From NCBI GenBank assembly GCA_026874595.1, contig CM049316.1:13010839-13074838 (forward strand): a stretch of 64,000 nucleotides of DNA, in the 5' to 3' direction. Positions 9,817-63,470 of this stretch are shown in pieces. This DNA comes from Sipunculus nudus. Lineage: Eukaryota; Annelida; Sipuncula; Golfingiida; Sipunculidae. Both the position numbers and the translations under genes were made by a program. Under the pieces are notes generated by a model, which worked only from the letters and a program-made list of their open reading frames with translations, was not told the DNA's origin and searched no databases. Each line of letters starts with the position of its first letter. Position 1 is the first letter of the stretch.

Positions 9817-9831
9817 ATGGAAACTAAAATG
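9817..9831 (+). CDS. Gene 1 exon 1 (start, METKM)
   Basis: This 15-nt coding exon encodes residues 1-5 and is followed directly by donor GTATGT. The context GACATGG is a fair Kozak start. Gene 2 has the identical exon at 36918 and gene 3 has MDTKL at 57021. It is too short to be found by ORF length, so its support is the conserved promoter, donor and position in three genes. Confidence 0.82.
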
Positions 9832-12800
9832 GTATGTATTCTCTACTTTTTTAAACTGAGTGAAATATTACTTTTTATCTAACTTATGATATTCTTATGA
9901 GAATGTTGTGTTTAATCTTTTCATATCAATTGTTCAAATAGTCTGCCGGTAGTGATTAACAAATGCAGAATTTGAAGCTGGTGATCTCCTATTTTAAGTT
10001 AACTCCTATAAAACCCAAAAAGAATTTTACAAATCCTCTGTACTTGTTTGAGAGCCATTTTACATTTTGTAATATCAACAGGACACAATAATCTTTAACC
10101 TCTGAAACTGTTGAAAAATGATGAAAACATAGTGTATTTAGTTAAAATTTGGAAATTATAAATGCTGAGAACAACTTGTTACAATTAAGATAAAATATGA
10201 TTACACCCAAGGTGCAATGACTCGGGATTCAGTGAAGCATTAAAAATAGAGAAGAAATTTGAATAACAGGTACAAACGTATTACATGCACTTGAGCCCAG
10301 TGCTAATTTAGTCATCCAATTGTATCCAACTCTGGAATAGTAAGAGAACAGTGTGAATTAAAAAAAAATAGTTACTTAATTGGCATCAGTTCATACACAT
10401 TAGGCACTTTATAAAAAAAAAATATTTGGATTCAATATGACTAATTTACTGGTAATTATTGGTAATAACTGAGCTGTCTAATAAGACTACCTTTTAATCA
10501 AGACCACTATAGGCCAGTCCCATGAGTGGTCTTATTATACAGGTTTTACTGTAGTTGAATAAATATAGTCAAGTGATGGAGAACATAAACCATATCTCCT
10601 TAAGGCTGGTGTAGCACAATATTTAAACTTCTCACTTCAAGACAAGGGAATTTTCCTGATACAATGGAAATAACCCTTATTTTAATTTTGTCAAATTTGC
10701 ATATTATTTTGATCAAATTTTATTTTTAAGAAAAACCCATCAACTTGTATTCATAAATATAAAAAACCTTAAAATCATGAATTGGAATGAACTCTTATGA
10801 ATATTTTATTAATTAAAACTTTACATTATATATATAAATTACTTGCAGCGGAGTATGCAAAGTGGAGCAAACAAATTTATGAAAGTTCAAATTTTACCTG
10901 ATACCTAATTTCCAAAATAATATACTTTTAGGATGGTTTGAAAATAACAAGAAATAACAGCCTACAAAATTTTTTAAATTACCAACTCACACCTGTTGTC
11001 AAACTGTAATATTTAATATTTGAGGTTTACTATAAAGTTCAGCCCTATTTTGTAATACAACCAGGAATGCCACTTTCTTTGCTATTTTCATAAGAAAGCT
11101 ATACCCTTCCCTTCCCTTCCCCTCTCCCCACTAAGTATTTGTCATATTTTAAATATCCATTATAATCCTCAAATATGCATGACATATTTGCATATATATA
11201 CATGTATCACATATGTTAACAATCAAGGTAAAGATACTGAATATGGTCATTAATTATTAAATGCACAGTTATTTTTAATTAAGATCAATGTTACATTCAC
11301 TTAATTATGTTAACATTTCAGATCACCAGAATGAAATTTATATCCCCATACAGTCTTTGGTTACTTTCTTAAAACAGTATTTCATCAATTTCACCAGTAT
11401 TTCTTCAAGGTGATATACCCAATAATCATACATATCTGACTTAATTAATTCCTCTCAAATTTCTATTTTGCTCATATGTTTGGTTATGTGTAATGTGAAA
11501 TTTTTTTTACATTCTTTAATGTATGTTTTGTAGTAGTTACAGGACATTTTGATTAAACAATCACTTGTTAAATCATTCAGCATCATATAAGTGCAATAAA
11601 TAAAGTCTTGAGATATATGTATGTTTCTTGATATGATGGTATTTCTTCCCTGGAGATTATTTATACCTTCACTATCTTTTAGTTAAAATGTTAAAAATAA
11701 GAATTCATGTTGTAAAATAACAGTAAAAAGTATCTTGGAAAATGCCTAACAGGCAGTCCAAGAATACACATAATAATGGACCTGAAAACACATGTTAATT
11801 ACATTAATGGACCTGACAAGGGTACATTAAGTGCAGAAGCTTTTTCACCAAAGCCGTTTTAACGATCCAAAAAACCTAAGGCAAATTCACCTTGATGCTG
11901 CAATCCCCACCCCAATCCATCCCCCCACCCCATTTTTCCTCCATAAGGACCAATGCACACATCAGCAAAATCATTTTTTTCAAAATTCATGAATTATGAA
12001 CTCAAGGTACTGCTTTTAAGTCAAACATAATCATTACATTAGCTCACTATATTTGCGTATTCAATTTAAAATTCAACTTGTCTATCATATTTGACAGGGA
12101 AACTCCTTTAACAAACTGATATATCTTTATGAAAACAGTGACACTTCAATATTAATATTCTGGCCAATGTTAATTAATCCTATGTGATATATATAGTCAT
12201 ACTGACCAATTGAAACACTGCAAATGCACATATAAATTTGATATTTTATTCATGTGTCTGATATGAAACAATGCAATGCTGTTTTTAATATATAATACTG
12301 ACCAATTAAGGGACACCAAATGTACTTATAAATTTTATATTTTATTCATTTATATGTCTGTTACATATCTGTATGGTTTTGTCTTTTATTGATTTATTTT
12401 TATTTATTGAGCCAGCGGCTCACTTACCGAATTTATCAGCTGATTCATAGGATCGGCCGACTATGTACTGACGGGAGTACATTGTTGTGTAGTGTGACAC
12501 CCCAAGTGACACAATTTTGTCGGCGTGAGGAATTGCCGTCGCCAAGAGTCTGGCACTGTTTAAGAAAATCAGCCAATTTTGTCAAGCAATTAGCGAAATT
12601 ATGTAGTAAGCCAATGTTTGCAACAAAGTCGGCCGGTTTTGTTAATTTTTGTATGGTCAGAGTTCACTTTCTGTACGTTGCCACTATTAGTCATTATAAG
12701 TATATATTGTATAATGACATATTTCTGTATTTTAAAAAGAATTAAAGACCAATTTTGGTAAAGATTCAAATTTCATTTATTCCTTGTAAGACAACCTGCA

Positions 12801-15800
12801 ATTTATTAGTCATTATAAAGGAGTATGCATTCATATAATTACAATGGGCGAACATTTCTGTAAACATAAGACTGAACGAACTGGTCTATGTGTGCACACG
12901 CCTATTTATTGCTGGGCTGTTGAGCAATCCTTCCAAGTGTGTGACGAGCTACTCTGAACAATTAACTCAAGCTTATGTAAGGGTTTCCTGGAGAAAAATA
13001 TAACACAATTCAATATTTACAACTCATGGATGGCAATAATCAACTGTATATCTGCTTGTAATCTCTAACCATCATTATAAATTTATTTCCTTAAGGTAGA
13101 TTTTGTGTCCCATCACTTTTTTTTTGGTCCTATCACAAGTTCTCCTTACAGTCAGCAAAAACAAAGGTGCCAAAGAAGGAAGTGTATAAATAAAAGAAAA
13201 ATTAGCCCAAAGTAAGAGGAAATGAGAGAAGACATGAATGAATAGCCAAAAAATTTTGAGTGATGCAATATCTAGTCCAGTGCACGCAGCAATACCTGAT
13301 GTTTACAGGTAACCCAATAGGCAAAAGTGTTCATGTGAACAGATCTCTGGTAACTTTTTTTCACGGAGTCAGCAGCATTGTTGGCAATGCTGTACTTTTA
13401 TACATTTTAATATATCTAATCTGACAGATAACAGAGTCATAACTGATCATCACTTGCTCTGGGAATTAATAGTAAAAATTAAAACCTAACCACGCAACAT
13501 ATTTGCTGCTGCTGGCGTTTGTTGTGTCTAGCAGTCAAATAAAACAGGATGATAAAGTGTTTGCTGGTTTATACAGGATAGCAGAATTCATATCACTTAT
13601 TTGAATTTCTAGAGACAGGAAATCCTAGAAATCACACAAACATGCAAGTAGAATATTATTTTCTAAATAAGAGTTTGTGTCTGGTGAAATAGCCCTTCTG
13701 AATGTAATATCCTGATGCTGGATGTTTGGTTTTACCAAATCCTGCAGATCAGCCACCGCAATCGTTTTAAGGGTTTAAGACCAATCCTTTCGGACATTTT
13801 CTAGACCTTGGGACCTTTCTTTAGGTTGAGTTATAAGTGCTTCTGGGTTGAACCCCTCTTTTCTTAAAACCCTGGACCTGCCTCTGAGATATGCAGAGAA
13901 AATCATTAAAATCATGGAGGACAGTTCCACCCTCCTGTCTCAGTTCTCATACAAGTGAATTGTTTATATGCTTTTAGTTCCTCTCTTCTTTCAAGCCAAG
14001 GTTTAACTGACAGGTCATTCTTCTGACACAGTTTATTTCTTTGGACAAGCCACAAAACAAACAAATATTTTGTTTTAGTTTTTCTTCTAGAAAGCTCAGT
14101 ATCATATCACCATAATGAGACAGACTCCTTCACCGATAATCTAGAGGTGGGAACAAGCACGTTGGTAAATGTGACACTGAAAATTGGCCAACTAAACCCA
14201 GCTGATTTTCAGCCGATTTTGAGAAAATCTGCCCAAAAAATCATACGACAATGTCACTTGATAAAATCGGGTAGAGAGCACATGGCTTAAATCAAGCTTG
14301 CTCACTCGAAAAGTACCCTGTTCACCCTACTTAATTATAATACAGTCACCTTTTACTAGTACAACTGTGAGTGTGTAGAGCAACGTGGGCAGTTCAGATC
14401 AAAATGACAAAAAAAAGCTTACCCTATTTCCATGACTACCACAAAAGGACCATATTACTAAACTCATGGGAACAGATAAAGAATAATTAAAATATAAATG
14501 AAAAGAAAAATGGAGATACACTGGAATAAAATCAAGTTATCATAATATTATATATAATATCATATTGATATTTTTTTGTTCTTTATTTCAGATTGTTGCT
14601 GTCCTAGTGGCTTTGGTTCTGGAATCAGGTAAGATGACATGATTCATGCTGATTTAAGTGTCTGCTGTGATGTCATAATGGTTACCATAGTGATTAAGTC
14701 ACAAATAAGTTCAATCAGAGTTTGTGAATGAAGTAGTTTATGGAAATTTTCTGAAAATATCTAATTCACAATATCTCATATCACTTTTTTTCCAGAACTC
14801 TATATATCTGGAATTTGAGTATTTTACAGTTTATTAATTTTATTATTCTTAAATTGTTATTCCATTTGTGCCAGGTCTGAGTGAACTTTATTAAAAAGAG
14901 ATAAAAGCAGCCTTTTAAAAACTCTTCATTATCATATACTTTTAAATATAATACACTTTACAACTTTTTCAACATCTAGTTTACACATTGTTTATCTTGT
15001 GGTGAATAAATACTCCCATCCCATCAGCTATCAAAAAAACTGAAGGGAAAAATTAACTGAATTGATATAAATGAACTAAAAATTAATTGAAACTATGAGG
15101 AAAATTAAACTGAACTGATTTAAAATATAAATAATGAAATGAATTGGAATTGATGACCGAGTTAGATGGAGCTGAATTGACAAACCAAGTAACTATCCTG
15201 ACATTTTCCTATATATTAATTTCCCAACATCTGGGAAACACAAAAGCAGTCAAACCGAGCAAGGTAAGCAGCTGAAATGTTGCTTAACCCCTCGTATAAA
15301 CTTTTGTGCATCAGCATACTCATTTAGGATTTGTCCAGTTATCAAAAGATTTCAACATTTATTTTACTTCTGAACGGAATCTGAATTGATAAAACATTTA
15401 CTGAATTGGAATGGAAATGCATGATATTTCTCATAAACACAATGAACTGAGTTGTTGTGATTGGATTTTTTTAACTCTTGAATTGGAAACTGAATTGGGA
15501 TTGGAATTTTTGTAATTCTTTAACTGAATAATTAATCGGAATTGAAAAATCTTTACTGACCCCGAGTATGTTAATCATCATTACATCTAAAAGGAGTTAT
15601 GTTGTAAATACATTGTATCAAATTTATATATATGAATATATATATAATCAAAATAATACACATAGAAATTCAATACATCATAGTGAAAGAGCTCAACCAT
15701 GCAGGGGAGCATTAATAATGTATCATATACAGTTATAGTTTTACTTCATGTACTACGGAATTGTTTTGTGAGTACAGCTGACTAGTCTGCTCACTCTTCA

Positions 15801-18493
15801 GGTACTAAAAGAACTGATCAGATATGCAGGTATAGTTTGCCAGAATATGTAGGATTAATCTGGGGTTATTCCGTTCAGTGAGGTTGTCGTTGGGGCCCAG
15901 GTGGCTATTGTGTTGCACTGGGGATTTGTGTGATTACTTAAAGTTACAAAGAAGTTGTTAATTATATTGAAAAAAGTCTCTAGGTTCAGCAATTCTCATG
16001 TTAGGTAATTAAATATATTTCCTGATTTTTTTAAAAATTGCATTATGTTTTGGCCCATAATTTCAAAAAAATACCCAATACTGACCTAATTTTTGGTATG
16101 TTCATAGAAAATGTATGAAAGAATGTGAATACTAAATACGATCAAAAACAGATCAGTGGTTTATATTAGGCAGCCTTGAAGTGTAACAATGGCTTTTTTT
16201 ATGGAAAACGGAGTTTTTTTCCTTAATATCTCAAAAGAACGAAGTCCTAATGACCCAATTTTCGGTATGGTAGGAGATTTTGGGGACATCTAAAATTATG
16301 CCAACAGCCTGGGAAGCACAGAGATGTGCACTGAATGACCTACAGTCATCAAAGTGGACTGCTTGACAATGTAAGGGAATACAACAAGAGCCTCCAAAAA
16401 AATTCAATAACTAGCCTAATTTTGCAGCTTTTATTATCAAATTTCAGACTTTAACAGAATAAATCCTTATATATACATGCTGTGAAAATTAAATCCACAG
16501 TACTTACAGGAAAAAAATGTGCCGTGGCCAAAGTTGGGCAAAATTTAAGGTACCAATTTTATATTTTTGCCAATATTTAAAAAAATTTTAACAGATTTTG
16601 ATCTAATTTTTGGTATACAATTAAATTTTGATTAATTAAAGTTGTATTACTGGAAAAAAGTCCCTACCTTTAACACTTTTGGTCTTAAGTGACCAAATAT
16701 CTTCCTGATTTTTTTACAAAGTCCATTATGTTTGGGCCCATAACTTTTTTAAATTATACAATACTGACTTAATATCTGGCATGTACATAGGAACTATATA
16801 GAGGAATATTTATGGTAAATATGAAGAAAACCAGATGAGTGGTTTTGATATTAGGCAGTCCTGAAGTGTGAAAATAGATTTCTAATAAAAAATTGAGGTT
16901 TTTCCTTAATATCTCGAAGGAACGAAGTCCTATTGACCCAATTTTAGGCATGGTAGGAGATTTTGGGGACATCTAACTGTATGCCGAATTTCATATTCGT
17001 AAGTCCAATGGTGTCGAAATGTGCCAGTCTTACGGACTGCCATCCAGACGGACAGACGACGGACAATGGACCACGACTATAGCTCAGATGACTTATAGTC
17101 AGCTGAGCTGATAATATTGGAGAAAAGTTCCTGCCATTCCTGGCTAAGTATTTTCCCCCAGACCATAAGTTGCATAAAATACTGAAACACTGTGAAACTC
17201 AGCTACAGCTGCATGCCAAGCATGAAACAGATAATATCGGCACACAACCAAAGACTCCTCAGACATGAAAGAGAGAAAGAACTATGGAACCTGGGTCTCG
17301 ACGCTCAGCTACATTTGTCTATAAGGTTATATGTTTATGAGGTTTTCCAAAATATTGGTCCTGTGATCAGTTTGAAGCCAACCTGTCTACCCAAACTGGA
17401 ATTATCATCCATAAACTAATTTGTGAATGGATGGGCCCTGTGACCTTAACCTTTGACCTTGTGATCCCAAAATCAAAAGGAAACTTCCCCTATTGGCAGG
17501 TGCACAACATGTTAATAATGGAAAAATTGAGATGAAAAGTTTGGCTTAAAATGCATCCACAATCTTTCTAAAGTAGTGGGTCCTGTGACCTTGACCTTTG
17601 ATCCCATGACCCCAAAATCAACAGTTCTTACTTTAGTGGTGAGCCATATATAAGTCAAGTTTGAAACCAATATTTCAAACCAAACTGGCATTATTATCTG
17701 GAAACTAATATGTTGATTGATGGCCCCCATGACCTTGACCTTGTGACCCCAAAATCTATAAGTTACTTCCACTATTGGCAGGTGAGCAAAATCAGGAAGA
17801 TAGAATGTTTGGGACAGAAAGTTTGACTAAAGATACATCAACAACCTTTTTCAAGAAGTGGGTCCTGTGACCTTGACCTTTTGCCTTATGACCCCAAAAT
17901 CAAAAGGATTCTTTCATTATTGGTGGGTCATATATAAGTCAAAATTGAAACCAATATGTCAATCCAAACTGGATTATCATCCAGAAACAAATATGTGGAC
18001 AGATGGGCCCCTGTGACGATCACCTTTGACCTTGTGACCCCCAAATCAATCAGTTTCTTCCCCTATTGGCAGCTCAGCTATATGTGCAAGATGGAAGGTT
18101 TTGGATAAAAAGTTTGGCTTAAAATGCATCCACAATCTTTCTAAATAAGTGGACACTGTGACCTTGACCTTTGACCTCATTTTACCCACATATCTGATCA
18201 GTTCAGTTAGTACCTGAAGAGTGACCAGCTGGTCAGCTGTACTCACAAAACAGTTCTGTAGTACATGAAGTAAAACTAACTGTATATGATACACAGATAT
18301 GATACACAGAGGAAGTTGGGGATCCCTGTTAGCTCAGTGGTAGAGCAGATGACCGGCAATCAGAGGGTCATGGGTTCAATTCCCATAGGGGGTGATCTGA
18401 CTTTTTCTGTGTATTCTTGTTCTATATCTCTATGAGATGGACCAGCATGGACATTCAAACATCTCTCTGTATATGATACATTAAATATATAAT

Positions 18494-18539
<46 letters not shown>

Positions 18540-21500
18540 TATGATTATTGTATCCAGTGGATGCTAAGAGGTACTGCAGAGAAGATACTGACTGCAACAG
18601 CCTGGGAAATGATCTGATCTGTGTCAAAAGTTTTTGCGACTTTGGCATCTGCTCTTGCCCAAGAAGCACTGTTTCTCGTTGGCTTGGCTCAGAGCGGCTA
18701 TTCAAATGTGTACCATGTGAGTATTTATATAGCTGTTGATCATATATTCATTTTTTTTGTATCTACTGATTATCATATATATGTTGGATTTATTTAATTA
18801 AAACAAATTGATATACAATCATTTTATTGAATTTTGATATATTTTAGTCCTAAACCTATCTATGAAAGCAACATTAAGTGAGCAAATTAGAATCAGCTAA
18901 TTTTTTGCTGAGCTCTTTGTTAAGCCCCCTGACCTAGGTCTACAACACAAAGTTGCACCCTCTATACCAAGAAAAGAAGTGGTACTGGTTAATATTGACA
19001 TCAGCAAGCTGGTAAACAATACATCTTATATCAATATCTTATCAACTTGAACGTCTTGGCATGGCTGCATGGGTGGTAATTAAGTACTCCCCCCTCCCTC
19101 CAGTAAGACCTGAGATATACTACAGGAATGAATTAGAAATCTGCATTCTAATTAATGCAAGCCTCTGCCATTCACTTATTTGGCCCACATTCCCGGGTTC
19201 ATCCCAGAATAGTGAGTATTCCCTGATGACATTCCCTAATCCAGACCTGATGTTCTGGATCCAGACCTGATGTTCTGGATCCAAACCAAAATGTTATCAA
19301 TTCTTCATTGGGCCTCAAAAATTATTTTTCTGTATTTGATTAGAGATTATGTATGTATTTCAGTGAAGAAGATTGGAGAGTCTTGTTTGTATTTGATTAG
19401 AGATTATGTATGTATTTCAGTGAAGAAGATCGGAGAGTCTTGCTCCACTGACGGAGATGCAGGTGTGTGTGGTGCAACTGATTCAGAGTGTGTTGATGGT
19501 ACCTGTCGATGCCGAAATAACTACTACTCTATTTGGGGAGGGGAGCTCTGTGTAGATGGGACAAATGCTGCGAAGCACAATGGGTATGGAGAATCATGCA
19601 GTACCAGTATTGGAGAATGCAATCTTGGAGGAGGTGCTGGCACATGTGCATCTGGGATCACTGGTAGCAACAACTGGCATAATGAAATCACTGCTTTTGA
19701 TTACCCTACCTGTGCGTGTCCTAACTTTCAGGTTCTGGAGATCAGTAACGCATACGATTCATTTGAGTACATTGGCCGAAAAAAACCTAAGTGCAGGGAC
19801 AGTGAGTATTATTCAAATTATCATTCAGCTGAAAATGTTTGTGCATGTGTATGAAATATCATGTGTCCATGAGTTAATATGCATACAGTGCAACTGGACT
19901 TTCCAAGCAAGATGATGTCTGTCCAGTGTTTTTTAGATCACCTGTTAGACTCACTGAACCACTGTACACTCCTTTAAGTTCACACACATTTGCACACATG
20001 TTTTTGGAGTATTTCTCTCATATATATATGTACTAATTACACAAACTAGTCTTGCAGCATTTTTACACCCATGCATATACCATTACACAGTTTATACCCT
20101 CAGGGGTAAATGAAAAAACACCCAGTTACAGTGATCATCTTTCAATTAAATTTATAATCATTAATCAATCATCAGTAAGAGCTATAAATGCATATATCTG
20201 TTAAATACAAAAAACAGCTGATTACTTTTAACTTATTTAACTAATTTATAATTTTGTGAGAATCATCTTTCAGGGATGCAGATGAGACTATGTTAAGGTA
20301 TCATTATTGTGAAAAACCCTGTATCTAACTCAATCTAAAGGTTGTTTAAATAATTAATATTTAAAATTTTATTTTTCAACAAAAAAGAACACACAACAGA
20401 GGAAAAAAAATGTTTTTTTTTGTAATTGTCATGTACGAAGTAACGAAATGAAAATGGTCATTTTAATCTACTGAAATCTTTTTATGACTCGATTTTTTCA
20501 TGTGTTTGTAGGGCGAATTGGGGAGTTCTGCCTGACAGACAATGACTGCAGTCGAATTCCAACACCTGGCGGAGACCATGCTCAGTGCAGTAACAACAAG
20601 TGTGAATGCAGGTCTGGTGCCTTCCCGAACTATGCGGGGACCACATGTGAAAATGGCACTGGTAAATACCAAGTGAATCACTTGAAACCTATCTGAATAT
20701 CAGTGCTGAGTGCTTAACTATATTTTATGTAAATAGTTTAAATCTGTTGAAAAAAGCACTAAAAATGTCTGATAAAGAATTAAAAAAAATTATAATACTT
20801 GCTAAATAAATATGAAACATCTGAGGCATGAGAAGACCTGTTTCCTGTTAAAAATGTACCAAACTTTAAAAATGTAGTAACTTAAGCACTGTTCTCTGAC
20901 CCTTTCTCAGACAGCAGCAGTTGACTGGTCTCCTTTATCACCCATCACTGACTGAGACTAGCTGTCACAAAATGTACAGCATTCTCTTATTGAGGCTAGC
21001 TGTCACAAGATGTACAGCATGATCTTAAATTGTCACAAAATGTACAACATTCTCTAACTGAGACTGTCACCAAATGTACAGCATCATCTGATACTGACAC
21101 AAAATATGTAACATTATCTCACGGAGACTTCACAGAATGTACAGCATTAGCTTACTGAGAGTTCACAAAATGTACGTCATTGTCTGAAACTGTCACAACA
21201 TTATCTAACTGAGACTGTCACAAAATGTCCAGTATTAATCAACTGTCAAAAATGAATGTACAGTCAAAAAATGTACATTATTATCTTACTGAGACTCACA
21301 AAAGGTCTAGCATTATCTAACCTGGACTGTCACAAAATGTCCAACTTAACCTATCTGAGACTGTCACAAAATGTACAGCGATATTTAACTGAAATATTAT
21401 CTGTCACTTATATATCACCTTATCTTAGATTGTCACATATAGATATAAATATTTACTAAACAAACTATATACTTAACTGAGATTCTCACAAACCATAAAT

Positions 21501-23532
21501 AATTTCCTGCAAAAATATGTCAAAATAAGTAATACTAGTATGTTTTTTTTGTTTTTTTTTTGCAGCTCTCACCACTGTTGGAGCAAATTGTGCAGGAACT
21601 GGGCACACTTCTGGTACCTTCTGTGATGGGTCACTAGGTCTGATATGTGCTGCTCCCCTCTGTCAGATCTATGAGAGTGGTACTTATCCAGCTGATCTGA
21701 AATGCATCTGTGGGCCTGGTTATACTACCAATGGGAATTCATGTGAGAGAAGTATGTACAGAGACAAACCTGTTTTGGAGTTATCACATGACCAATACAC
21801 AATGATATAAGGGTCCCATTCTGATATCTGACATACAATGAATGCAGATAACCTTTTGAACCTTTTATATGATTAAGCCAAAACACACAAATCCAACAGC
21901 ACATAGGCTTACTGTTTTGTCTGTATATAACCAACGTTTTTATATTATGTGGGGGTTCTGCCATAAATGCCCATAATGACCTTCCATCATATTTACAAGG
22001 ACATCTAGTGCATGGCAAATCAGATGAGCAAGAGATTTGCAAATGACAAAAGATGCTGTCACCAACAACAGCTAGTGCACACTCAACTGATTTGTTTGTC
22101 AACATGGCCACATGTAGCCTTGTTTACTACCAGCATATAAAAAAACAAAGGCAGGAATCAGCCACAGGGGCATATTATAAGAATTTTTTTATTATATGAA
22201 ATAACTTAAGTAAGGCAGGAATCATATTAATTCAAGTGTATATATATAGCTGTCTTTAAATTCAAGTCACACTGAAAACATTCTGAAACCACATCTGGAT
22301 ATTCAAAATGATCACTACAGTTTGTCAAAATAAACGAAAACTTAGGCTAATTAGCAGTTCTTTTGCTCATTTTCTGAGAACCACAATGGTCACAATGTAC
22401 CAGTAATGAATTTTTATTATGTATTCAGTAAATATGTGTGCCAGGAATACCAGTTGACTTACTATGTTAACTCTTGCATCCAGAAGTATGGAAGTAATTA
22501 AACGGTGCAAGTTACAAAATACAGTGTTATTTTCCTATACAAAGTGGGTGTTATTCTATTTTCCATATTTTTAGCCCTACATATGGGGACAGTGCACCCC
22601 CTCTAAATTTGGTCCTGAAAATGCATGAAGGCTGCATGGATATTTATCTTACATCTTCTAAAATATTCCAAGTTAATAATCAGCAAATTAAAATTAATGT
22701 TTACGCAGTTTTCATAAAAAATTATATTCTCAACTACTAGATGTTCTAGCATGATAAACAGTCACATATCTGATGCATACAAAATTTGGTTTAATAACTG
22801 GTTTTGAACTGTTTTGTATTTGTATTGTAAAAAAATGAATATTTGTCTGACCCTCAAATGACATATATGGCTTTGTTGCAGGAGTTATTGGAAGTTCATG
22901 CCGTGGAGACAAAGATTGTGAAAAGGCAGGAACAAATGTGATATGCGTGGATGGTACATGCCAGTCAGGTCAGTTCTAATTCTAATCTTTGTCATATGTA
23001 CCTCCTGTATACATACAAGCTGCTAAAAAAATTTGTAAGACCACATATGCTCATGTCAAGCAGAATTACAAATATATCTTTAATCATACATATATCAATA
23101 TGCAAATTAAACTTTTACAATATTTGTAATTAAATTACATTGTAATAGTTAATGTGTAAGTTGGCTGATAGTGATTTATGATATATAAAAATATGATATA
23201 TCAAAATATTAAGTTATTTATGCATTTGCATGCCCTGTTGGATGTGTCTCAAAGTAAAATAAAGAAATCAGAAAGAACATAAGAGTACCACTTATTTGAC
23301 AAATATTTAACATCTAAGTTATCACTAGATGATAATTGTAGACTGCTTTAACTGTTTTATCAAGACTGGCTGTTAAACTTAATTATTCCACTGGAACTGA
23401 ATACATGTGGAACAAATGAAACTTATGACCAATTCAAGTATCTGTTGTATTTTCACTGCAGGTGCCAGTGCCCTGGCTGTTACCATGGTGATCCTTGTAG
23501 CCTCCTTCCTGCTCACAGTCTCCTTCAACTAG
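9817..23532 (+). CDS. Gene 1: secreted, probably GPI-anchored cysteine-rich multi-module protein, 8 exons, 361 aa
   Basis: Exons are 9817-9831, 14592-14628, 18558-18716, 19421-19801, 20512-20661, 21566-21751, 22882-22968 and 23462-23532, all with GT-AG introns. The first intron is phase 0 and the rest are phase 1. Residues 1-17 form a signal peptide (METKM then IVAVLVALVLES) with likely cleavage after VDA. Residues 18-338 are cysteine-rich modules with 36 cysteines whose spacing resembles EB/EGF-like modules (DxDC, GxCxC). One N-glycosylation sequon, NGT, sits at the exon 5/6 boundary. Residues 339-361 are a hydrophobic tail ending SFN with no basic cytoplasmic residues, which fits a GPI signal. 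The start was chosen because it follows a TATA box by about 100 bp and is shared by all three paralogues. Exon structure is seen in the sequence; family assignment is by pattern only. Automatic annotation of similar genes might say 'prion-like-(Q/N-rich) domain-bearing protein' or 'multiple EGF-like'. The function is unknown. Confidence 0.88.
9832..14591 (+). other. Gene 1 intron 1
   Basis: It is 4760 bp, against 2867 bp in gene 2, and most of the excess is the TIR element at 12411-14286. Around 10478-10560 is a MITE-like sequence (AATAAGACTACC...GAGTGGTCTTATTA) also present at 37566 and related to the 17-bp minisatellite at 55.3 kb. The rest aligns with gene 2 intron 1. I see no exon in it. 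Confidence 0.6.
12411..14286. mobile_element. Non-autonomous TIR DNA transposon in gene 1 intron 1
   Basis: Gene 2 lacks this 1.88-kb block, so it is an insertion. The first 33 bp (GCCAGCGGCTCAC... TTTATCAGCTGA) match the reverse complement of the last 33 bp at about 24 positions, giving degenerate terminal inverted repeats. Subterminal AATCAGCCAATTTTG and AATCGGCTG stretches are also partly inverted. No transposase ORF is visible and target duplications are unclear. Confidence 0.6.
14592..14628 (+). CDS. Gene 1 exon 2 (signal peptide core)
   Basis: The exon is 37 nt, encodes residues 6-17 (IVAVLVALVLES) and ends in phase 1 at TCAG before GTAAGATG. The acceptor is TTTATTTCAG. It supplies the hydrophobic core of the signal peptide. 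Gene 2 encodes FLAVLVVFVLAS and gene 3 IVAIAICIFAT in the same place. Confidence 0.85.
15960..17112 (+). repeat. Copy of the hairpin-ended dispersed family inside the intron 2 element
   Basis: It aligns with parts of 2580-3201 and 28380-29005 (GCAATTCTCATGTTA, TTAATATCTCAAAAGAACG), in two partly overlapping passes (15960-16310 and 16430-17112). It ends with GGACGGACAGACGAC-type sequence and the TAGCTCAG...CTGAGCT hairpin. It is non-coding. Confidence 0.65.
17430..18180 (+). repeat. ~285-bp tandem repeats with TGACCTTGACC blocks
   Basis: Units begin near 17430, 17716 and 18002 (GATGGGCCC.TGTGACC). Each contains CCTATTGGCAGGTG-like and AGTTTGGCTTAAAATGCATC-like segments. Short minus-strand reading frames here share KVKVTGPTTLERLWMHF-like peptides only because the DNA repeats. 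Confidence 0.6.
18294..18466 (+). mobile_element. tRNA-derived SINE
   Basis: It carries a pol III box A (TAGCTCAGTGG, 18330-18340) and a perfect box B (GGTTCAATTCC, 18373-18383) with a good T-arm (ATGGG/CCCAT), but the acceptor and anticodon stems pair poorly. It is flanked by 14-bp direct repeats CTGTATATGATACA at 18280-18293 and 18467-18480, the expected target-site duplication. A real tRNA gene is less likely because the stems are broken. Confidence 0.62.
18491..18545. repeat. (TA)n microsatellite next to gene 1 exon 3
   Basis: A TA dinucleotide run ends about 15 bp before the exon 3 acceptor. It is likely polymorphic in length and close enough to influence branch-point and polypyrimidine use. 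Confidence 0.8.
18558..18716 (+). CDS. Gene 1 exon 3 (N-terminal 7-Cys module)
   Basis: It encodes residues 18-70, starting VDAKRYC just after the signal peptide. Seven cysteines include the GICSC pattern, followed by the motif RWLGSERLFKC that is nearly fixed in all three genes. Both ends are phase 1 (donor GTGAGT). The protein sequence is identical to gene 2 exon 3, with only silent differences seen, and about two thirds like gene 3. The odd cysteine count means one may pair with another module. Confidence 0.93.
19241..19280 (+). repeat. 20-bp tandem duplication in gene 1 intron 3
   Basis: CCAGACCTGATGTTCTGGAT occurs twice in a row. Gene 2 has a single copy at the matching place, so the duplication is specific to gene 1. 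Confidence 0.9.
19332..19440 (+). repeat. 57-bp tandem duplication spanning the exon 4 splice acceptor
   Basis: The intron end and first coding bases (TGTATTTGATTAGAGATTAT through GGAGAGTCTTG) are repeated at a 57-bp interval, giving acceptors at 19361-19363 and 19418-19420. The interval is a multiple of three and open, so either acceptor keeps the frame. Gene 2 has one copy. Confidence 0.92.
19421..19801 (+). CDS. Gene 1 exon 4 (double module, 12 Cys)
   Basis: It encodes residues 71-197. The first half (KKIGESC to GGELC) holds six cysteines and is nearly identical in DNA to gene 2. The second half (GESCSTSIG to KPKC) holds six more and differs a good deal. FDYPTCACPN and ISNAY are conserved in all three genes, with TCSCPN and ISNWY in gene 3. 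A 57-bp tandem duplication places an equivalent acceptor at 19361-19363. Using it would start the exon at 19364 and add 19 residues in frame. Confidence 0.9.
20512..20661 (+). CDS. Gene 1 exon 5 (6-Cys EB-like module)
   Basis: It encodes residues 198-247 with the pattern GEFCLTDNDC...QC...KCECRSG...TC, a typical six-cysteine EB/EGF-like spacing. Acceptor TTTGTAG, donor GTAAAT, phase 1 at both ends. It ends in the glycosylation sequon NGT shared by the three paralogues. It is one codon shorter than gene 2 exon 5 (TPGG against TFPAG). Confidence 0.9.
20930..21480 (+). repeat. Degenerate ~30-37-bp minisatellite in gene 1 intron 5
   Basis: About a dozen diverged copies of a unit like ACTGTCACAAAATGTACAGC plus ATTATCTTACTGAG fill the intron between exons 5 and 6. 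Gene 2 intron 5 has a shorter array at about 45485-45730, so copy number has changed since the duplication. Confidence 0.75.
21566..21751 (+). CDS. Gene 1 exon 6 (7-Cys module, most diverged)
   Basis: It encodes residues 248-309 with seven cysteines. FCDGSLGLIC and CICGPGYTTNGNSC match the gene 2 frame, but the middle (YESGTYPADLK) is two codons longer and unlike the ETAP sequence shared by genes 2 and 3, so the gene 1 version looks derived. The acceptor follows a T-rich tract ending TTTGCAG; donor GTATGT. Confidence 0.9.
21752..22881 (+). other. Gene 1 intron 6 with a dispersed-repeat insertion
   Basis: It is 1130 bp against 391 bp in gene 2. The extra part, about 21880-22130, resembles 60405-60660 in gene 3 intron 2 (TATATTATGTGGGGG, AAGGACATCT, TTTGTTTGTCAACAT), so it is a dispersed repeat of about 200-250 bp. 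No exon is seen. Confidence 0.55.
22882..22968 (+). CDS. Gene 1 exon 7 (short 4-Cys module)
   Basis: It encodes residues 310-338, VIGSSCRGDKDCEKAG then ICVDGTCQS, the first four cysteines of an EB-like pattern. Phase 1 at both ends. It lies directly before the C-terminal hydrophobic exon, so its SG residues are candidates for the GPI attachment site. Confidence 0.88.
23462..23532 (+). CDS. Gene 1 exon 8 (hydrophobic C-terminus, stop)
   Basis: It encodes residues 339-361, beginning GASALAVTMV and ending LLTVSFN before TAG. About 18 hydrophobic residues run almost to the stop with no positive residues after them, as in GPI-anchor signals. A single-pass membrane anchor with no cytoplasmic tail is the alternative. 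Gene 2 differs by one residue (V to I). Confidence 0.9.
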
Positions 23533-27094: not shown

Positions 27095-29005
27095 TATAAA
27101 CAAAGGACCCATGGGTCACGACAACCAGCTTAAGTTTGAAATTTTTGCAAATGCAAAATATGAAAAATATTCTATTGTAATGTTTTTCATTTATATAAGC
27201 ATATGAGAAGCTAAGAGGAAAGGGCCCTCCTACTTGGTTATAGTAAAGTTCTCAATATATGATTGCAAACTAATACTCTGACAAGACTGTCATGAAGAAA
27301 AACAGTAAAAGTTTTGAGATACTGTGATGCATATGAAAAATTTACAGATGGACAGGCAAGTGGACAGAATGGACTAATACCTTTATTTCACTTTCAAGGG
27401 AATAATGCATTTAGGTTTATATATAAGCCTATTTTTTTAGCATATCCACTTTTTTCATTAATAGTTTTTATCTGATTCATTATTTTTAATTACAAGTTTT
27501 ATAAATTTGTAATATAAAAACTGAAAATATAAGTTAAAATATTAGAATTCTAAGTTGCAATCATTATATATTCAGATTGTAGTTCATATTGGGTCATATT
27601 ATGCATACACATATATTTTATTATTTTTAAATCAAATGTTTAAACTGAATGTAAAAGAAAATAATGCCACAACATGGCATCTACAAAATTATTCCTTGAA
27701 TCCCTATTAAAAAGTTTTGCACATTGAAGTTTTCAGTACATGCTTAATTTTATTCACCGAAATAAAATAAAAGATTCAGTACATTTGATAAAATAAAAAC
27801 ATCTTTTCATATAAAGTATACACACTGTTGGTTGAAGGAGGGACAAACAATATCATTATGCTAATTACAATCTCAGCTGTAATTAATTACTGGAATTAAA
27901 AGTCAATTTCACACCTGGTGAAGTTTTACTCTTCTGAAGTAAAGCATTACTTATCTGATGAACATCCACACTTTTATAGCAATACATCACTTTCTGGACA
28001 CAATTAAATGTGCACTTTAATCATTGTAACCCTGTTGGCACAATACAAAATCTAAAATGTAGCATGCCCAAGAATAAAATAAAATACAGAAAATTATAAC
28101 ATTCATCTAGTTTATGCACCAGCTGGGGGGGAGGGGGGGGGGGGGGTGAGTGCAGGGCAGAGGGAAAGCCTACTAGTAGTGGCCAAGCTGGGCCAAGGTA
28201 AGCTGCCTGGGGTGGGTTACATAATGCAAGTGAAGGCTGTACTACCAGGTGGGCCAGATGTAAACAACACTTGACTTGGTGTATGAAAACTTGAATAAAA
28301 GCTACACTTTTCAAACAATTTCTGTGAAATTTCAGATTTTAAAAGATTAAATCCTTATGTATATATGCTGTGAAAATTAAATCAACAGTGCTTACAGGGA
28401 AAAAACGTGCCACTGCCAATTTTGGACAAAATTTAAGGTATTGATTTTTTATTAATGCTAATAACTTGAAAAATTTGCAAAATTCAGATCTAATTTTGGG
28501 TAAACAATTGAATCTTGATTAAATAAAGTTATATTCCTGAAAAAAAGTCTCCAGCTTCAGCAATTCTCATGTTAAATGAGCAAATATATTTCCTGATTTT
28601 TTAAAAATTGCATTATATTTGGGCCTATAACTTCAAAATAATACCTAATACTGACCTAATTTTTGGTATGTGCACAGAAAATGTATGGAAAAATATGAAT
28701 ACTAAATAAGATCAAAAACAGATCAGTGGTTTTTATATTAGATAGCCTTGAAGTGTAACAATGGCTTTTTCATGGAAAACGGAGGTTTTTCCTTAATATC
28801 TCGAAGGAACAAAGTTCTAATGACCCAATTTATGGTATGGTAGGAAATTTTGGGGACATCTAATGGTATGCAGAATTTTGGATTTGTAGGTCCAACAGTT
28901 TTAAAACGTGCCCTGTTAACGGCCGGATGGCCGGCTGGCCGGACGGACTGACGACGGACAAAGGACCACGACTATAGCTCAGATGACTTATAGTCAGCTG
29001 AGCTA
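27095..29005 (+). mobile_element. Hairpin-ended ~1.9-kb non-autonomous element, copy 2
   Basis: Near full-length match to 1305-3201, ending GGACGGACTGACGACGG and the TAGCTCAG...CTGAGCTA hairpin at 28974-29004. It has a poly-G run at about 28126-28146. Confidence 0.6.
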
Positions 29006-29258
29006 AAAATAGGATCTAACTGAACAAATGTGTAAACTGCTGAATTGTCAACAGCTTGTCAAAGTTGTCAACAACTTATCATTTTAAAAAATGTTAACAC
29101 TTGTAAAAAAAGTTTCCAGTCCACAGGTGGAAGGACTTGATTGTAGGTGTGGTGGGGGAGGGAGGGTTGATACAGATGGGAGTTGCAACACCTCTGAATA
29201 TATTTTCTTTATTTAATACATTTTATGCAGTTGCAATAGAACTATGACCCAAGTGCTC

Positions 29259-36917: not shown

Positions 36918-36932
36918 ATGGAAACTAAAATG
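36918..36932 (+). CDS. Gene 2 exon 1 (METKM)
   Basis: It is identical in coding sequence to gene 1 exon 1, with context GACATGG and donor GTATGT. It follows TATA (36818) by 100 bp, within one base of gene 1. Confidence 0.82.
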
Positions 36933-57035: not shown

Positions 57036-60000
57036 GTAAGAGGAATTACTTTGACCAAACTCTCTTAAAACTAACCCCATAATATATTATGCATCCATGG
57101 GAATTAAACCATTAGCTGTAGGTACAGTGATGATATAAATATATATATATAATTATAAAAATAATAAATAATACTTATGTGTAACTTATCAGGATACCTC
57201 AACATGTATCATTCCTCATCATATTATCAGGTGTACAACATTGGTTTATGAGCAAAAAACTCCATAATTTTATTAACCTAGACTGAGGTTGCTGAGTAAG
57301 ATAATTATAATTACAACACCCTGATAAACATTTCAGATTTTTCCTAACATATTTATTAACCTCAAGCATTTACTGTTATTATAAATATTTGCATTGCCCT
57401 TGACAACAAAAACTACTGGTCTATAAGGTAACCAAGGAAGCAACAGCACATAAGCAAGTTTACTTTAGATACACATATGTAATATTTGTACTCTAATATA
57501 TAGCAATCATATAGCTAGAATATGACATTTTTTTTAAACAGTTTTTTAATAAAGCAGAATTCAAGATATGTTCTAAATGACACTTAAACTGCAACTAAGC
57601 TCAGCATATGCAGGACAACACTGAAATATTCTAAAATAAGTGACCCATGGGTCATGATGCTCAATTTATTGACCTTTGACATTCAGGCCAAAGGAGAGCT
57701 GAGTTTGATCTGACTGAACACTGACTGGGATAATGTGGCTCCCTGAATTGTCTATCTAAATACATTATAGCAAACCTTTAATTATTTTCTAACTAATAGA
57801 CACTACACCTTTAATTATCTACAAAGGTTATAGAGCACTTTCCCTTATAATGGTAGCCATTCCATATGTTAGTATGCAGTATATATGTAGCATCATTAGT
57901 TTGGCTGCGGTAGGGATCCAAAATGCAGACACAAGGGCACTAATTGGGGATGTTCCACACCTAAAAGTCAGTGATCAGATATTCTTCCTCACTTGGGGAA
58001 ATAATATTTTTATGTGTTGTTTTTTTTTTCCTAAATTGTTTTGGCTGCACTCCCCATCCCTCTTCCTGCAGTTGTGGACATTTTTAGGGTACTAGTAAAT
58101 GGTCAACTCCTACCTTCTCCATGCTCTGGATTAGCCCCTGCCTTTTTAGCCAAAACTTTCATGAGATCTCGATGAAACTATTTGTTATAAACATCAGACT
58201 TTCAATTATATGTATCCTTTGTGTGTATGCTTAGATTTCAGACATAGGTATGTTAAAAAAGAACCAAGAAATATTCTATAATATTATAGGACATCATCAG
58301 GATTACAAACTGGGCATTAACAACCATATCGTACAGAAGACTCCACTGGGTTGGGGGGGGGGGGGTGGTAGGGATACTAAAATATCCATACAAGCAGAAA
58401 ATTATTATCTGACAAGAAGCAGTCAGAGACTACAATCTTTGCAAGAACTCTCATCAAATTTGCTGCATACACAGCTGTCACAGGTCAACAACTCCATCCC
58501 TGGTCTCCTCCAGAACAAAGCCACCTTTAATACCAATCAATACCATCTTGCACTCAGCCAAATTCAAGAGATAACCCTGTGTCACAAAGGAATGGAATCA
58601 TTTGATTAAAAACATAATGTGGTGATTAAGGCTGTCTCCAAAATTTAAGATTCTCCTTGGGTGTTATCATAACCCTACAAAAAATTCATCAAAATTTTTC
58701 CAGAACTGTGAAGTTGCTAACAGACAAACCATTCAACCAATGGGAATACAACACTTTTCTCTGCCTGAAAATACCACTGAAATACTGAAAACACTGAAGA
58801 TACCAAATAGTAATACATGATACAAGAGTATACACTGTAGAATAACTACCTTAACTGTAATATTTAACTGTGAATACTGTAATTATGTAAACACAGAGAA
58901 AGTAATTCATAATTGTCCAAGTAGCTGTAACATGAAGAAGAAAATTATTTACTTAGGGGAGGGGAAATACTGAAATTATCTATTTGGAGAGAAATTAATG
59001 AATTAATTATACCAGTTAATTAATATTAACTAGCTTATTAATTGGCACATTACTGAATAGATTTTGTATGGACTGGAATTTATTTGAATATCTTTTTTTT
59101 TGTTTCAGATTGTGGCTATTGCAATCTGCATTTTTGCAACAGGTAAGTCATGCATTAAATGCTTTAACAGATTTCTCTCAGCTTGTTAAATTTACTATAT
59201 GATTTAATATTGAAAATGTTGTTTTAGCCAAAATTTCCTTAGAAAAACATGACCACTGTAGCATAAAGACTTTGAATGATGTTATATTACTGTTTAGTGA
59301 CCGCTTTATGTTCATAAAGAGATTCTTTGTTACTTAAAAATTAAGTCTGTAAGTCAAAGGGTTAAATGCATAGCTGAAACAACCACATTTCAGCACATCT
59401 GTTTCTATAACAAAGTTTATGAATATGATTATGAATATGTATGTTAATATCCTTAAAAACAGATAATAAAGGAGAATGTTAATTCATTTTTTTTCCCAAC
59501 AAAAATAACACCAGTCAAAATAATTTTTAAAACATGAGGCCCAGTCATACAAAAATTCATTTGTGATTATTAGTCTTGATTAAGATTAAAAAAGAAAAAT
59601 TTTTTGTACAGTCATTAGACTATCCCATAACCACAAATGACTACCGGTAGTTGTGTGACAATGGTGGAAAGTCACTGTCTGTATGGCAAGTCCTTATACA
59701 AATCACAGGTCGCTGGGACTTGTGTCTTATCACAAATGTAACCATAAAGGGGCCCAATCACCTATCTGACCATTATAAACTAAAGTCAATCGCTTACAGC
59801 TTTCATACATGTAGTATGTCCGTATTCAAAAAGTTTAACGAGACATGGCCTCACAGACAACATAACACGTTGAATGCATACTTCCGCAGTGGCGCCCTCT
59901 ATCTTTATTCATACAAACTAAACATAGACTGGCATCTGCCATTAATATATTACACTACTCCCCCTTTGAAGAGAATGGCAACAGCATTATTCAGTTTTTA

Positions 60001-63000
60001 CATCACATAATACTCTGGACATTGTAACAACACTTATAAATGAGACAAACATAATATACCAGTATAGCACATACAGGTAACACATATGATCTTGGTTCAT
60101 CATTACAGATTTAACTTCTGCACTGGTTTTCTTATTCTCTCAGATCTTCGCAATGGTACAAGTTCAGGTTTATCAACATTTAAAGATACAGCTTCATTTT
60201 GCAAGTCATCCATAACATCATCAGTGGTCACATCACTGGTTGGATTTACCCTTAGATCAAAAGCATTAATATCAGTCTGACCATCAACATTTTCATACTT
60301 CCGCAGTGGCGCCCTCTATCTTTATTCATACAAACTAAACATAGACTGGCATCTGCCATTAATATATTACAATACAAATAGGCCAGAATTGTGGATATCA
60401 CTGCACACAGGCTGCTTGTTTTGTTTATACCAATGTGTTTATAATATGTGGGGGCCCGCCAAAATAATCAAAACAAATCCAACAAGGACATCTGGCAGCA
60501 AGTCAGATAAGCCAGAGCGATTGGCATTTTGCTACAAGTGACCTTCCCACCTCCTTCGCATATATGCAAACTACCATCTTAGATTACATGTTTTTCCCGT
60601 TTGTCAACATTGCTGTGTTTACAAACATGTTGTTGTCGATAAACAAGTTCACGCATCCTTCACGAAGGCCTTATAAGAACTTTTCACAACCACAATTACC
60701 CATAGATCATTAATATATACACAGAGGAGGCCAGCAATCACATAGATTCTTTTGCAAAAGTTAGGTGATTGGGCACCTTTAACATATTTACTAGATAACT
60801 GTTACTAGGTAACTGTTGCCATGGCATATGGTCATTGCTCAGAGGTGACTGTATTTTTTGTTTATTAGTTATCTTTGGCCTTTGTAGTGCAAGCTAAGAA
60901 ATACTGTTCACAAGATTCTGACTGCTCTGAACTTGGAGGACTCTTCTGCATCAAGAGCTCATGTAACTGGGGTATCTGCGCCTGTCCACGATCAACAGTT
61001 GCTCGCTGGCTGGGCTCAGAGCGGCTGTACCAATGTGTGCCTTGTAAGTCTGAACTATATAAATATTTCTGATAAAAATATATTTTTTAATTTATAACAG
61101 AAAAAAACTGATATAAAATTCTACATTTTTTCCCATATGTAAATGTACAAATCTGATGTTAAATTAAAATGCAGAACACTTGTTTTACATATGTAATGTA
61201 AAACTTCTGCTTTGGTTGCTGATGCCTGCATCTGATAACACACAGAAGGTGAAACCTGCAATTTTTTACCTGCATTACCAAAAATGTTTTATAACCACTG
61301 TTTATGATGAAATAGGAGCCACCAGTTAAACAGAAGTAAAAAATATTACACTGAACAACAATTAGATTTATTTGTGTAATATTGCGCAAATTGCACTGAG
61401 ATGTCCCCAAAGTTACATACACTATTTCTACTCTCTAGTGAAAAAGGTGGGAGAGAGTTGTTCCACAGACGGTGATAGTGGTGTCTGCGGTGCTCCAAAT
61501 TCTCGTTGTAACTCTGGAACTTGTGAGTGTAGCACCGGTGTCTCCATCTGGGGAGGAGAATACTGTGCCACTGACTCTCAGAAGACAGGCCCTGGAGAAT
61601 CCTGCAGTAGTAGCATCGGAAGCTGTACTTTGTCCTCTGGCGGCAGCACCTGCATGTCAACAACCGGCGCCAACTGGCATGACGAAGTGATCAGTTTCGA
61701 TTACCCAACTTGCTCCTGTCCCAACAACCAGCAGCTCGTCATTTCTAACTGGTACAACGCCTTTGACTACATTGGCCGCAAACTTCCCACCTGTGTCCAG
61801 AGTAAGTAGCATTTTTTTTTTAATTTTACAGTGGGGGAGGGGGAGGAGATTGGGCCAGGGTTGTGACCCACCTTTCATAAGGCAAATGCAAAAAGGGTTT
61901 CAAACCAATTTGGCTGAAACATTTTAAACCCAGCTCGGGAGTTGGTTTCAAACTGTTCTCTGCAAATTTAATTATCCGCTCTGCTAATGTGTCTTGTGAA
62001 GACCTAGTTTTAAAGCAGCAACTAAGTCACAGCACAAGTACTAATGTTTTGGGCGGCATGTTGTTACATTATTCAACAGGCGAAATGTACGGCATTAGTG
62101 CATACATGCCATTGTGAACACACAATGCGGTAATAAAATGGATTTGACAAATATGCTTTGAACAAAACATTTTAAAACCATTTTGTGTGTGAAAGGGGTA
62201 TATGAAGAGAGTGTGGCGGGGGGGGGGGGGGGGGGGAAGGTGCAGGTTATCATTTGCAACAAGTACTTATCTACAAAAAGAAAGAAATTTGGTCCACCAG
62301 CTCCTTAACAATGTCACAGGAGTAAGATCGTTCATGGCTCAAACTATTTAAAACAGATAAATGGAGAAACAGAGTTGTACATAATGTTTGTGATATAGCC
62401 TCATTGTTCGATTCTTGACATGTATGCAACCTTATTAATTTTCTCCCCAGCAATGCTTTAAGCAGTGACTGAGAAACCTTTTATACTGAAAGCAATACAC
62501 ATACAAAGTATTAAGTTAAGACCTTGGTATTGTGAAACAAAATTATCATTTTCATTTATTCTGTAAAAAAATGTTTTCATCACAGCGTTTTGTTAAAGAA
62601 CATTTTTACTATTACTTGTTATTGTATGGGATCAATTTATTTTCAGAGGTTGTTGGTAGTTTTTGTTTGAAGAACTCTGACTGCGACCAGATTGGTGGTA
62701 CCAGTACTGCCGTTTGTGTCAACAATGCATGCGCTTGCCCTTCAGGTTCAGTAACTGACTATTTAGGCGCAAACTGCAACAATGGAACAGGTAATGATTC
62801 AGTTTTCTTTAAATGCGATAACTTCTCTTAAAGAAATATTGATTTACAAGGAGATGAAGGTCCTATTTTCATATGCAAATATTTCTCCAAAAGGAAACTT
62901 CTTATTTGCAATTCAAAAAATAATTTCTGCTTATAAGCAAGAAATTCCTAAAACACATTCTTTTTACACATGCTGCATAATGTCAGCTTTAAATTTTTTT

Positions 63001-63470
63001 TCAGAAATGGGATCACAGAAATATTGTTAATGTTAAAAAAAAGGAATGTGAAGTTAAATGTCTAAAAAGTGTTTTGACCACATTATTAGGTGACACTGAA
63101 GAGGAAATTGTACATTTTACATGATCAGCCCTGCAACATCAATATTACAAACAACGAGAAATTTTAAATTATTAAAAAATATTAAATGTACATGTAAATA
63201 ATTGATTTTATGGTGTCAAATATAATTTGTGGATCTTTATGGTTTGTAAATAATTTTGGCTTATACTACTTGACTTGATCTATATATGTTTTACAGCACT
63301 TGGCTTTGGAGGTGTCTGCAGTGGAACAAACTACCAAGCATTCACATTCTGTGATGGGGCTGCTGGCCTTGTTTGTGGAGATACATGCACAATCTATGAG
63401 ACTGCTCCCACACAGTCACTCTGCAGATGTGGTCACCGCCATACTGTCTCTGGCACTACTTGTAATGCCA
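57021..63470 (+). CDS. Gene 3: diverged paralogue, exons 1-6 (3' end outside window)
   Basis: Exons are 57021-57035, 59109-59142, 60888-61043, 61439-61801, 62647-62790 and 63297-63470, in the same phases as genes 1 and 2. They encode 295 complete residues plus a split codon. The signal peptide is MDTKL plus IVAIAICIFAT. The mature part keeps all 32 cysteine positions of the matching exons (7, 12, 6, 7). WLGSERL, SIWGGE, GPGESC, FDYPTC and the NGT sequon are shared. Exons 3-5 are slightly shorter than in genes 1-2. The donor at 63471 (GTAAGT) points to further exons, presumably the short 4-Cys module and the hydrophobic tail, beyond 64000. It has diverged throughout, so it is an older duplicate. 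No break is seen. Confidence 0.86.
57036..59108 (+). other. Gene 3 intron 1
   Basis: It contains one GTGACCCATGGGTCATGATGC element start (about 57639), a poly-G run at 58353-58365 and otherwise unremarkable AT-rich sequence. It is not visibly alignable with intron 1 of genes 1-2. Short open frames inside are not supported. Confidence 0.5.
59109..59142 (+). CDS. Gene 3 exon 2 (signal peptide core)
   Basis: It encodes IVAIAICIFAT, one codon shorter than in the paralogues, and ends in phase 1 before GTAAGT. The acceptor is TTTGTTTCAG after a T-run. Confidence 0.85.
59877..60371 (-). mobile_element. Collapsed LTR retrotransposon in gene 3 intron 2
   Basis: Identical 78-bp direct repeats lie at 59877-59954 and 60294-60371. 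On the minus strand each begins TGTAATATATTAATGG and includes AATAAA, as an LTR start would. The polyprotein tail lies between them, followed by a purine tract (AAAGGGGGAG) directly before the 3' LTR start. The order LTR, pol tail, purine tract, LTR fits an element whose interior was deleted. The identity of the repeats suggests a recent event. The 3' LTR probably continues below 59877, end not determined. Confidence 0.65.
60103..60293 (-). pseudogene. 3' end of an LTR-retrotransposon polyprotein (fragment)
   Basis: Read on the minus strand, an open frame of about 63 codons starts at the junction with the LTR fragment and ends in TAA at 60103-60105. Its end contains RRSERIRKPVQKLN, the basic motif typical of the C-terminus of Ty3/Gypsy or Copia polyproteins. 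Everything upstream (gag, protease, reverse transcriptase, integrase core) is missing. It has no start codon and is not a gene. Confidence 0.65.
60405..60660. repeat. Dispersed repeat shared with gene 1 intron 6
   Basis: It shares TATAATATGTGGGGG, CAAGGACATCTGG and TTTGTCAACAT with 21880-22130. It is non-coding; the class is unknown. Confidence 0.5.
60888..61043 (+). CDS. Gene 3 exon 3 (N-terminal 7-Cys module)
   Basis: It encodes residues 17-68 starting VQAKKYC, with all seven cysteines, GICACPRSTVARW and LGSERLYQC. Acceptor TTTGTAG, donor GTAAGT. Confidence 0.92.
61439..61801 (+). CDS. Gene 3 exon 4 (double module, 12 Cys)
   Basis: It encodes residues 69-189, LKKVGESC to PTCVQ, six residues shorter than genes 1-2 through small deletions, with all 12 cysteines kept. 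Its KTGPGESC and SIGSCTL match gene 2 rather than gene 1. Acceptor CTCTCTAG, donor GTAAGT. Confidence 0.92.
62218..62236 (+). repeat. Poly-G tract in gene 3 intron 4
   Basis: A run of about 19 G, potentially quadruplex-forming on the transcribed strand's partner. The remainder of the 845-bp intron shows nothing else. Confidence 0.8.
62647..62790 (+). CDS. Gene 3 exon 5 (6-Cys EB-like module)
   Basis: It encodes residues 190-237, KVVGSFCLKNSDC to NCNNGT, with six cysteines and the shared sequon. Acceptor TTTTCAG, donor GTAATG. Confidence 0.9.
63297..63470 (+). CDS. Gene 3 exon 6 (7-Cys module)
   Basis: It encodes residues 238-295, LGFGGVCSGTN to SGTTCNA, with seven cysteines and YETAP as in gene 2 (FETAP). 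Acceptor TTTACAG, donor GTAAGT. It is the last exon of this gene in the window. Confidence 0.9.

Follow-up and report, generated by a model that had tools for sequence, protein, structure and literature searches.

In Sipunculus nudus (Annelida; Sipuncula), a tandem family of genes for multi-module, cysteine-rich proteins combines a head that is invariant in the three youngest copies with a stalk that changes in the same copies at the rate of the introns, and this contrast is what is new here. The window, that is, the whole stretch of 64,000 nucleotides that was analysed (C11:13010839-13074838, C11 being contig CM049316.1 of the 1.43 Gb, 153-contig assembly GCA_026874595.1), contains three plus-strand genes, two of them in full and the third for the most part. 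Nine genes, in the order a, b, c, 0, 1, 2, 3, 4 and 5, form a same-strand array that spans about 210 kb of C11, with genes 1, 2 and 3 in the window, and a tenth gene lies on contig C5. The best explanation, to which we give a probability of about 0.5, is a tandem family of EB-module proteins that are anchored at the cell surface by glycosylphosphatidylinositol (GPI) and in which a looser stalk, scaffolded by cysteines, carries a constant head for binding.

The genes share one plan, consisting of a signal-peptide core exon (phase 0 in, phase 1 out), five module exons A to E (phase 1-1) and a last exon F. Exons A to E nominally encode 7, 12, 6, 7 and 4 cysteines, and with exon B divided into modules B1 and B2 the numbers for A, B1, B2, C, D and E are 7, 6, 6, 6, 7 and 4. 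Modules A and B1 are called the head below, and B2, C and D the stalk.

The copies most alike are genes 0, 1 and 2, with distances of 28.4 and 27.1 kb between successive first exons. Their BLAST-aligned non-exon DNA differs by 13.7 to 15.5 percent, and the three-way neutral count over 5052 non-exon columns gave 0.234 changes per site. This rate may be too low, because BLAST-aligned stretches favour the better conserved introns, and claims of positive selection are weakened accordingly. A whole-gene MAFFT alignment of the same genes, in which intron divergence was higher (23 to 33 percent), was dropped because exon A was misaligned. In the head, all 98 compared residues were identical in the three genes. 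No nonsynonymous change was counted on about 229 sites, where about 54 were expected at the intron rate, while 8 synonymous changes were present; with the low synonymous rate of the head itself as the yardstick, the probability of this result was still about 9e-14. In the stalk, on the other hand, the intron rate predicts 103 nonsynonymous changes and 101 were counted (P 0.91), with about 44 synonymous changes. The change starts within exon B at the border of B1 and B2, with 0 nonsynonymous and 5 synonymous changes in B1 and 35 and 17 in B2 (P 0.006). Exon E showed 8.5 changes of each kind, and the tail encoded by exon F showed 1 nonsynonymous change against 11 expected. The head is the most conserved part across all ten genes too, as the mean identity was 0.67-0.68 for A and B1, 0.56 for E and 0.43-0.45 for B2, C and D. 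The intact frames of the older pair, genes 3 and 4, are under constraint, with dN (nonsynonymous changes per site) of 0.22 and dS (synonymous changes per site) of 1.36 overall.

A scan for exons, combined with hydropathy, located one signal-peptide exon candidate in each of the ten genes. Run as a control over the 254 kb around the window (C11:12890001-13144000), a scan of this kind gave 11 hits on the plus strand, nine of which were the sole hits preceding exon A in the nine array genes, and 5 on the minus strand. At the other end, exon F has about 70 bases, encodes only a hydrophobic tail and the stop, and was located in nine of the ten genes. In all nine, the last cysteine of the modules is followed by one residue, then N, S or A, two residues from G, A, S, N and D, the hydrophobic stretch and the stop. 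A GPI signal consists of a small-residue cleavage triplet followed by a C-terminal hydrophobic stretch, with no cytoplasmic part. The tail sequences thus point to GPI anchoring, which is predicted here from sequence.

Across all ten genes, 33 of the 36 cysteine columns are invariant. Two of the other three are broken by gene c, and the third by a gap in gene a that may come from the alignment. All genes have the nominal counts of 7, 12, 6, 7 and 4 except gene b, with 8 cysteines in A, and gene c, with 10 in B. In gene c (C11:12959347-12975093), for which no tail exon was found, B2 lacks its first and fourth cysteines (alignment columns 128 and 168). Their joint loss suggests that these two cysteines may pair with each other, and this protein may be secreted or the gene decaying.

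The initial annotation of this DNA knew no named family with this module order and proposed to search the spliced proteins against Pfam. We found no name for the exact order either, but the modules belong with a known domain: spliced gene 1 matched the EB module (PF01683) over four stretches with 41.8 bits, above the cut-off of 24.3. This score is that of gene 1; all nine proteins scanned (the C5 protein was left out) matched EB at E up to 1, the best at 4.1e-11. When ten module peptides were scanned singly, only module C of gene 1 passed the EB cut-off (25.1 bits). The resemblance to the EB module lies in A, B1, C and E, each of which leans to it. The family differs in B2, which has no Pfam match, and in module D, which in gene 1 leans to the EGF-like side (cEGF, 19.4 bits, below the cut-off of 26.6) and in gene 3 has no match. 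Its modules hold 4 to 7 cysteines; EB modules are described with eight conserved cysteines each. The Dickkopf N-terminal region (PF04706) was matched by one of nine members at E 0.058, and not by gene 1 at E up to 1. A genome-wide search with the EB model returned five matches, one of them inside the array, which is not a count of EB genes since most single exons fall under the limit of that search. The mollusc hemocyanin family (PF14830) had no match, with its control silent as well, and a query for an APGWamide repeat gave 72 weak matches, of which the two inspected, on C8 and C16, are repeats of other kinds. Pfs25 and MSP1-19, which are EGF-like surface proteins, and the EGF modules of NELL1 showed a weak likeness, of fold only. 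Relatives were found neither in phages, with exon B of gene 2 as the only query, nor in PDB by sequence; 12 pattern matches in viral contigs and 23 in prokaryote genomes gave no confirmed relative.

As to function, which we infer throughout from sequence, the proteins would enter the secretory pathway and fold with up to 18 disulfides (36 cysteines), and a GPI anchor would tether them to the outer cell surface. The job of a GPI-anchored protein with no inside part would be to present a binding surface outside the membrane. The head, lying distal to the membrane, would be the shared working part and is marked as the binding surface by the selection that keeps A and B1 constant. Its probable partner is one conserved ligand or co-receptor, which must cross the membrane or couple to it, since the protein itself would have no inside part. 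B2, C and D would form a disulfide-braced stalk on which constraint is much weaker in the young copies and, for D, apparently absent. Its variation would be either drift or recognition. The stalk reading is ranked first because B2 to D change at, and not above, the intron rate, and no module was shown to change above its own synonymous rate. New copies would come from unequal crossing-over of units about 27-28 kb long, and the symmetric phase-1 exons would allow exchange of single modules with the frame intact. To our knowledge, the EB domain has no agreed function. The present family gives the layout of a full EB-type protein, with a signal, six cysteine modules and a GPI-type tail, and selection singles out the head, about 98 residues long, as the segment to produce and to use in a search for a partner. 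With a single head picked out by selection, the function is directly testable.

Several results weigh against this explanation. In the stalk, the ratios of nonsynonymous to own synonymous change were 0.53 for B2 (P 0.02) and 0.45 for C (P 0.002), so both modules are constrained. Synonymous change in module C exceeded the intron rate (17 against 7.2, P 0.0002), and therefore the introns may understate mutation in the exons. Synonymous change was also lower in A and B1 (8/65 sites) than in B2 to F (58/159; P 0.0003), and gene conversion may therefore add to the identity of the head. The contrast was milder in genes 3 and 4, with dN of 0.13 in A and 0.31 in D (dS of D, 1.49). At the 5' end, the first exon encoding METKM was found in four of the ten genes (0, 1, 2 and 4), and a search for it in the other six, gene 3 included, found none. 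At the 3' end, exon F was sought and not found in gene c, the tail of gene b is the weakest, and scanning blindly for tails lacked specificity, with 21 hits on the plus strand and 16 on the minus strand; the tail exons were therefore accepted by their place and likeness. Finally, the AlphaFold2 model of exon B was poor (mean predicted local distance difference test score, 45).

Relaxed constraint after duplication may account for the same counts. The young copies would be partly redundant, only the head and the tail would be needed, and the stalk would drift within the needs of its fold with no part in recognition. The stalk as a whole is neither over nor under the intron rate, module D evolves at its own synonymous rate and the older pairs are constrained in all modules. 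However, the young trio keeps all cysteines of B2, C and D with unbroken frames, and A and B1 showed no relaxation. We regard this explanation as possible but doubtful.

A further possibility is diversifying recognition, in which the stalk, above all D, would be a recognising surface driven apart between copies in an immune or gamete setting, while A and B1 dock a common partner. The own-synonymous ratio of D in genes 0, 1 and 2 was 1.17, and the stalk changes at the intron rate with every cysteine kept. In addition, the closest pair among these genes varies by exon (genes 0 and 2 in D, 0 and 1 in A and B, 1 and 2 in C and E), a shift that may reflect module exchange between copies. The ratio of D was, however, not different from 1 (P 0.69), and its 38 nonsynonymous changes against 31.7 expected at the intron rate were not an excess (P 0.19). 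The ratios of B2 and C lie significantly under 1, D is constrained in genes 3 and 4, and the variable part is on the side near the membrane. Diversifying recognition by the stalk is rather improbable. Unlikely as well is a related view of the family as constant-head, variable-stalk receptors, in which a selection-frozen head of about 98 residues would sit on diversifying stalks, the phase-1 exons would act as exchangeable cassettes and the whole array would amount to a germline repertoire for recognition at the cell surface.

The proteins could instead be secreted components of a barrier, mucus or matrix, with the tail removed or the protein shed and cross-linked outside the cell. The cysteine content is very high, and since A and D hold an odd number (7 each), bonds between modules or between molecules are possible; gene c, where no tail was found, would also suit such a role. 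On the other hand, the tail exon is kept in nine of ten genes and the tail is constrained in the young trio. This makes a secreted family quite unlikely, and surface anchoring remains the preferred interpretation. It is very improbable that the family is an artefact of gene modelling or assembly with false tandem copies: the gene models were built from genomic sequence, but the non-exon divergence of the three most alike copies is in our judgement too large for haplotype duplicates, and phases, cysteines and selection agree across loci.

The array is larger than the initial annotation could see. It had described an array of three genes; these are real, and they are part of the nine on C11 with a tenth on C5. 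When the genome was searched for the exon B region of gene 2, 11 rows came back, two of which are parts of a single gene; this makes nine separate loci on C11, all on the plus strand, and one on C5. The genome-wide search with exon A found the same ten places and no solitary copies. Exons A to E were located in all nine C11 genes, and the C5 gene has these five exons too, together with a candidate signal exon and a tail. Genes 1 and 2 form a segmental duplication, introns included. In the tree, genes 0, 1 and 2 clustered with support of 100/99 and the C5 gene joined them with 100/98; support was weaker at deeper forks, and genes a and c were on long branches.

Within the window, the annotated exons of the three same-orientation genes were confirmed at their coordinates, and signal exons were located in all three. 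The hydrophobic GPI-type tail reported for genes 1 and 2 is present, and exons E and F of gene 3 lie just past the window end. The sequences likewise support the proposal that a family of cysteine-rich surface proteins, probably tethered to the membrane, has expanded locally. A phase-1 AG acceptor and a phase-1 GT donor were present at all 45 module exons of the nine array genes; the scan was restricted to phase 1, so that it shows such sites to be present and does not exclude other phases. In five exons (B of genes 0, 1, 2 and 4, and D of gene 3) the second-listed splice site was chosen by match to the homologues. A TATA-like box lies at -99 or -100 from the ATG in genes 0, 1 and 2. Position 9817 is the ATG in exon 1 of gene 1, and 63470 is the final base of exon D of gene 3. 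The features are as follows (window positions unless C11 is given).

9718-9725, plus strand: TATA-like box of gene 1, 99 bases upstream of the ATG
9817-9831, plus strand: gene 1 exon 1, METKM, phase 0 donor; peptide common to exon 1 of genes 0, 2 and 4
14592-14628, plus strand: gene 1 signal-peptide core exon, phase 0 to 1, from the exon scan
18558-18716, plus strand: gene 1 exon A, 7 cysteines, EB-like
19421-19801, plus strand: gene 1 exon B, 12 cysteines; B1 EB-like, B2 without Pfam match
20512-20661, plus strand: gene 1 exon C, 6 cysteines, EB module
21566-21751, plus strand: gene 1 exon D, 7 cysteines, weakly EGF-like
22882-22968, plus strand: gene 1 exon E, 4 cysteines, half EB module
23462-23532, plus strand: gene 1 exon F, GPI-type hydrophobic tail and stop
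36918-36932, plus strand: gene 2 exon 1, METKM
39800-39836, plus strand: gene 2 signal-peptide core exon, from the exon scan
41058-41216, plus strand: gene 2 exon A
42905-43285, plus strand: gene 2 exon B
44677-44829, plus strand: gene 2 exon C
45789-45968, plus strand: gene 2 exon D
46360-46446, plus strand: gene 2 exon E
46867-46937, plus strand: gene 2 exon F, GPI-type tail and stop
59109-59142, plus strand: gene 3 signal-peptide core exon, from the exon scan
60888-61043, plus strand: gene 3 exon A
61439-61801, plus strand: gene 3 exon B
62647-62790, plus strand: gene 3 exon C
63297-63470, plus strand: gene 3 exon D
C11:13075319-13075405 and C11:13075915-13075985, plus strand: gene 3 exons E and F, past the window end

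Tandem EB families are a known kind, since expansions are in print for the flat oyster. In the Ostrea edulis genome paper (PMC9679249), two tandem expansions of "uncharacterized EB domain" (IPR006149) genes, OG0002210 and OG0013280, with 31 and 11 copies, are described as specific to Ostreidae, in an assembly of 876 Mb as compared with 1.43 Gb here. The likeness to the present family, as tandemly expanded EB-domain genes, is one of description only; for the present family, module order, a GPI-type tail and a constant/variable split are described in addition. Among the matches listed in our literature searches, no published description of the exact module order was found.

Some smaller features of the window concern gene 1 and its surroundings. 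A 57-bp tandem duplication (19331-19442, plus strand; 98 percent identical) doubles the acceptor of exon B in frame. Use of the outer acceptor would start the exon at 19364 and add 19 residues with two extra cysteines; in genes 0 and 2, exon B was seen with a single copy of the unit. Just upstream of exon A, positions 18323-18394 hold a tRNA-like sequence (Rfam tRNA, 43.3 bits; ARAGORN anticodon GGC, Ala), possibly a tRNA-derived short interspersed nuclear element. The segments 1303-3205 and 27098-29009 are 91 percent identical, above most of the remaining duplicated units of genes 1 and 2, and may represent either a repeat of dispersed type or a more recent exchange. Upstream of gene 1, a 280-bp satellite forms two arrays (5080-6482 and 6938-8213), and similar peptide fragments were noticed by eye near gene 4 elsewhere in the cluster.

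Frames reminiscent of mobile elements were seen in the array outside the window. Between genes b and c (C11:12946671-12949875), a frame of 362 residues resembles the N-terminal part of RAG1 (Pfam RAG1_imp_bd, 7.5e-6, over the cut-off; phmmer to RAG1, 3e-7). It is followed by a frame of 676 residues with DUF1280 (3.5e-15), and the two together recall the N-RAG-TP transposon of Aplysia (PMC8355894). In the intron of gene b between exons A and B (C11:12923277-12928667), an open frame of 1797 residues reads like the polyprotein of a long terminal repeat retroelement, an assignment made by reading only.

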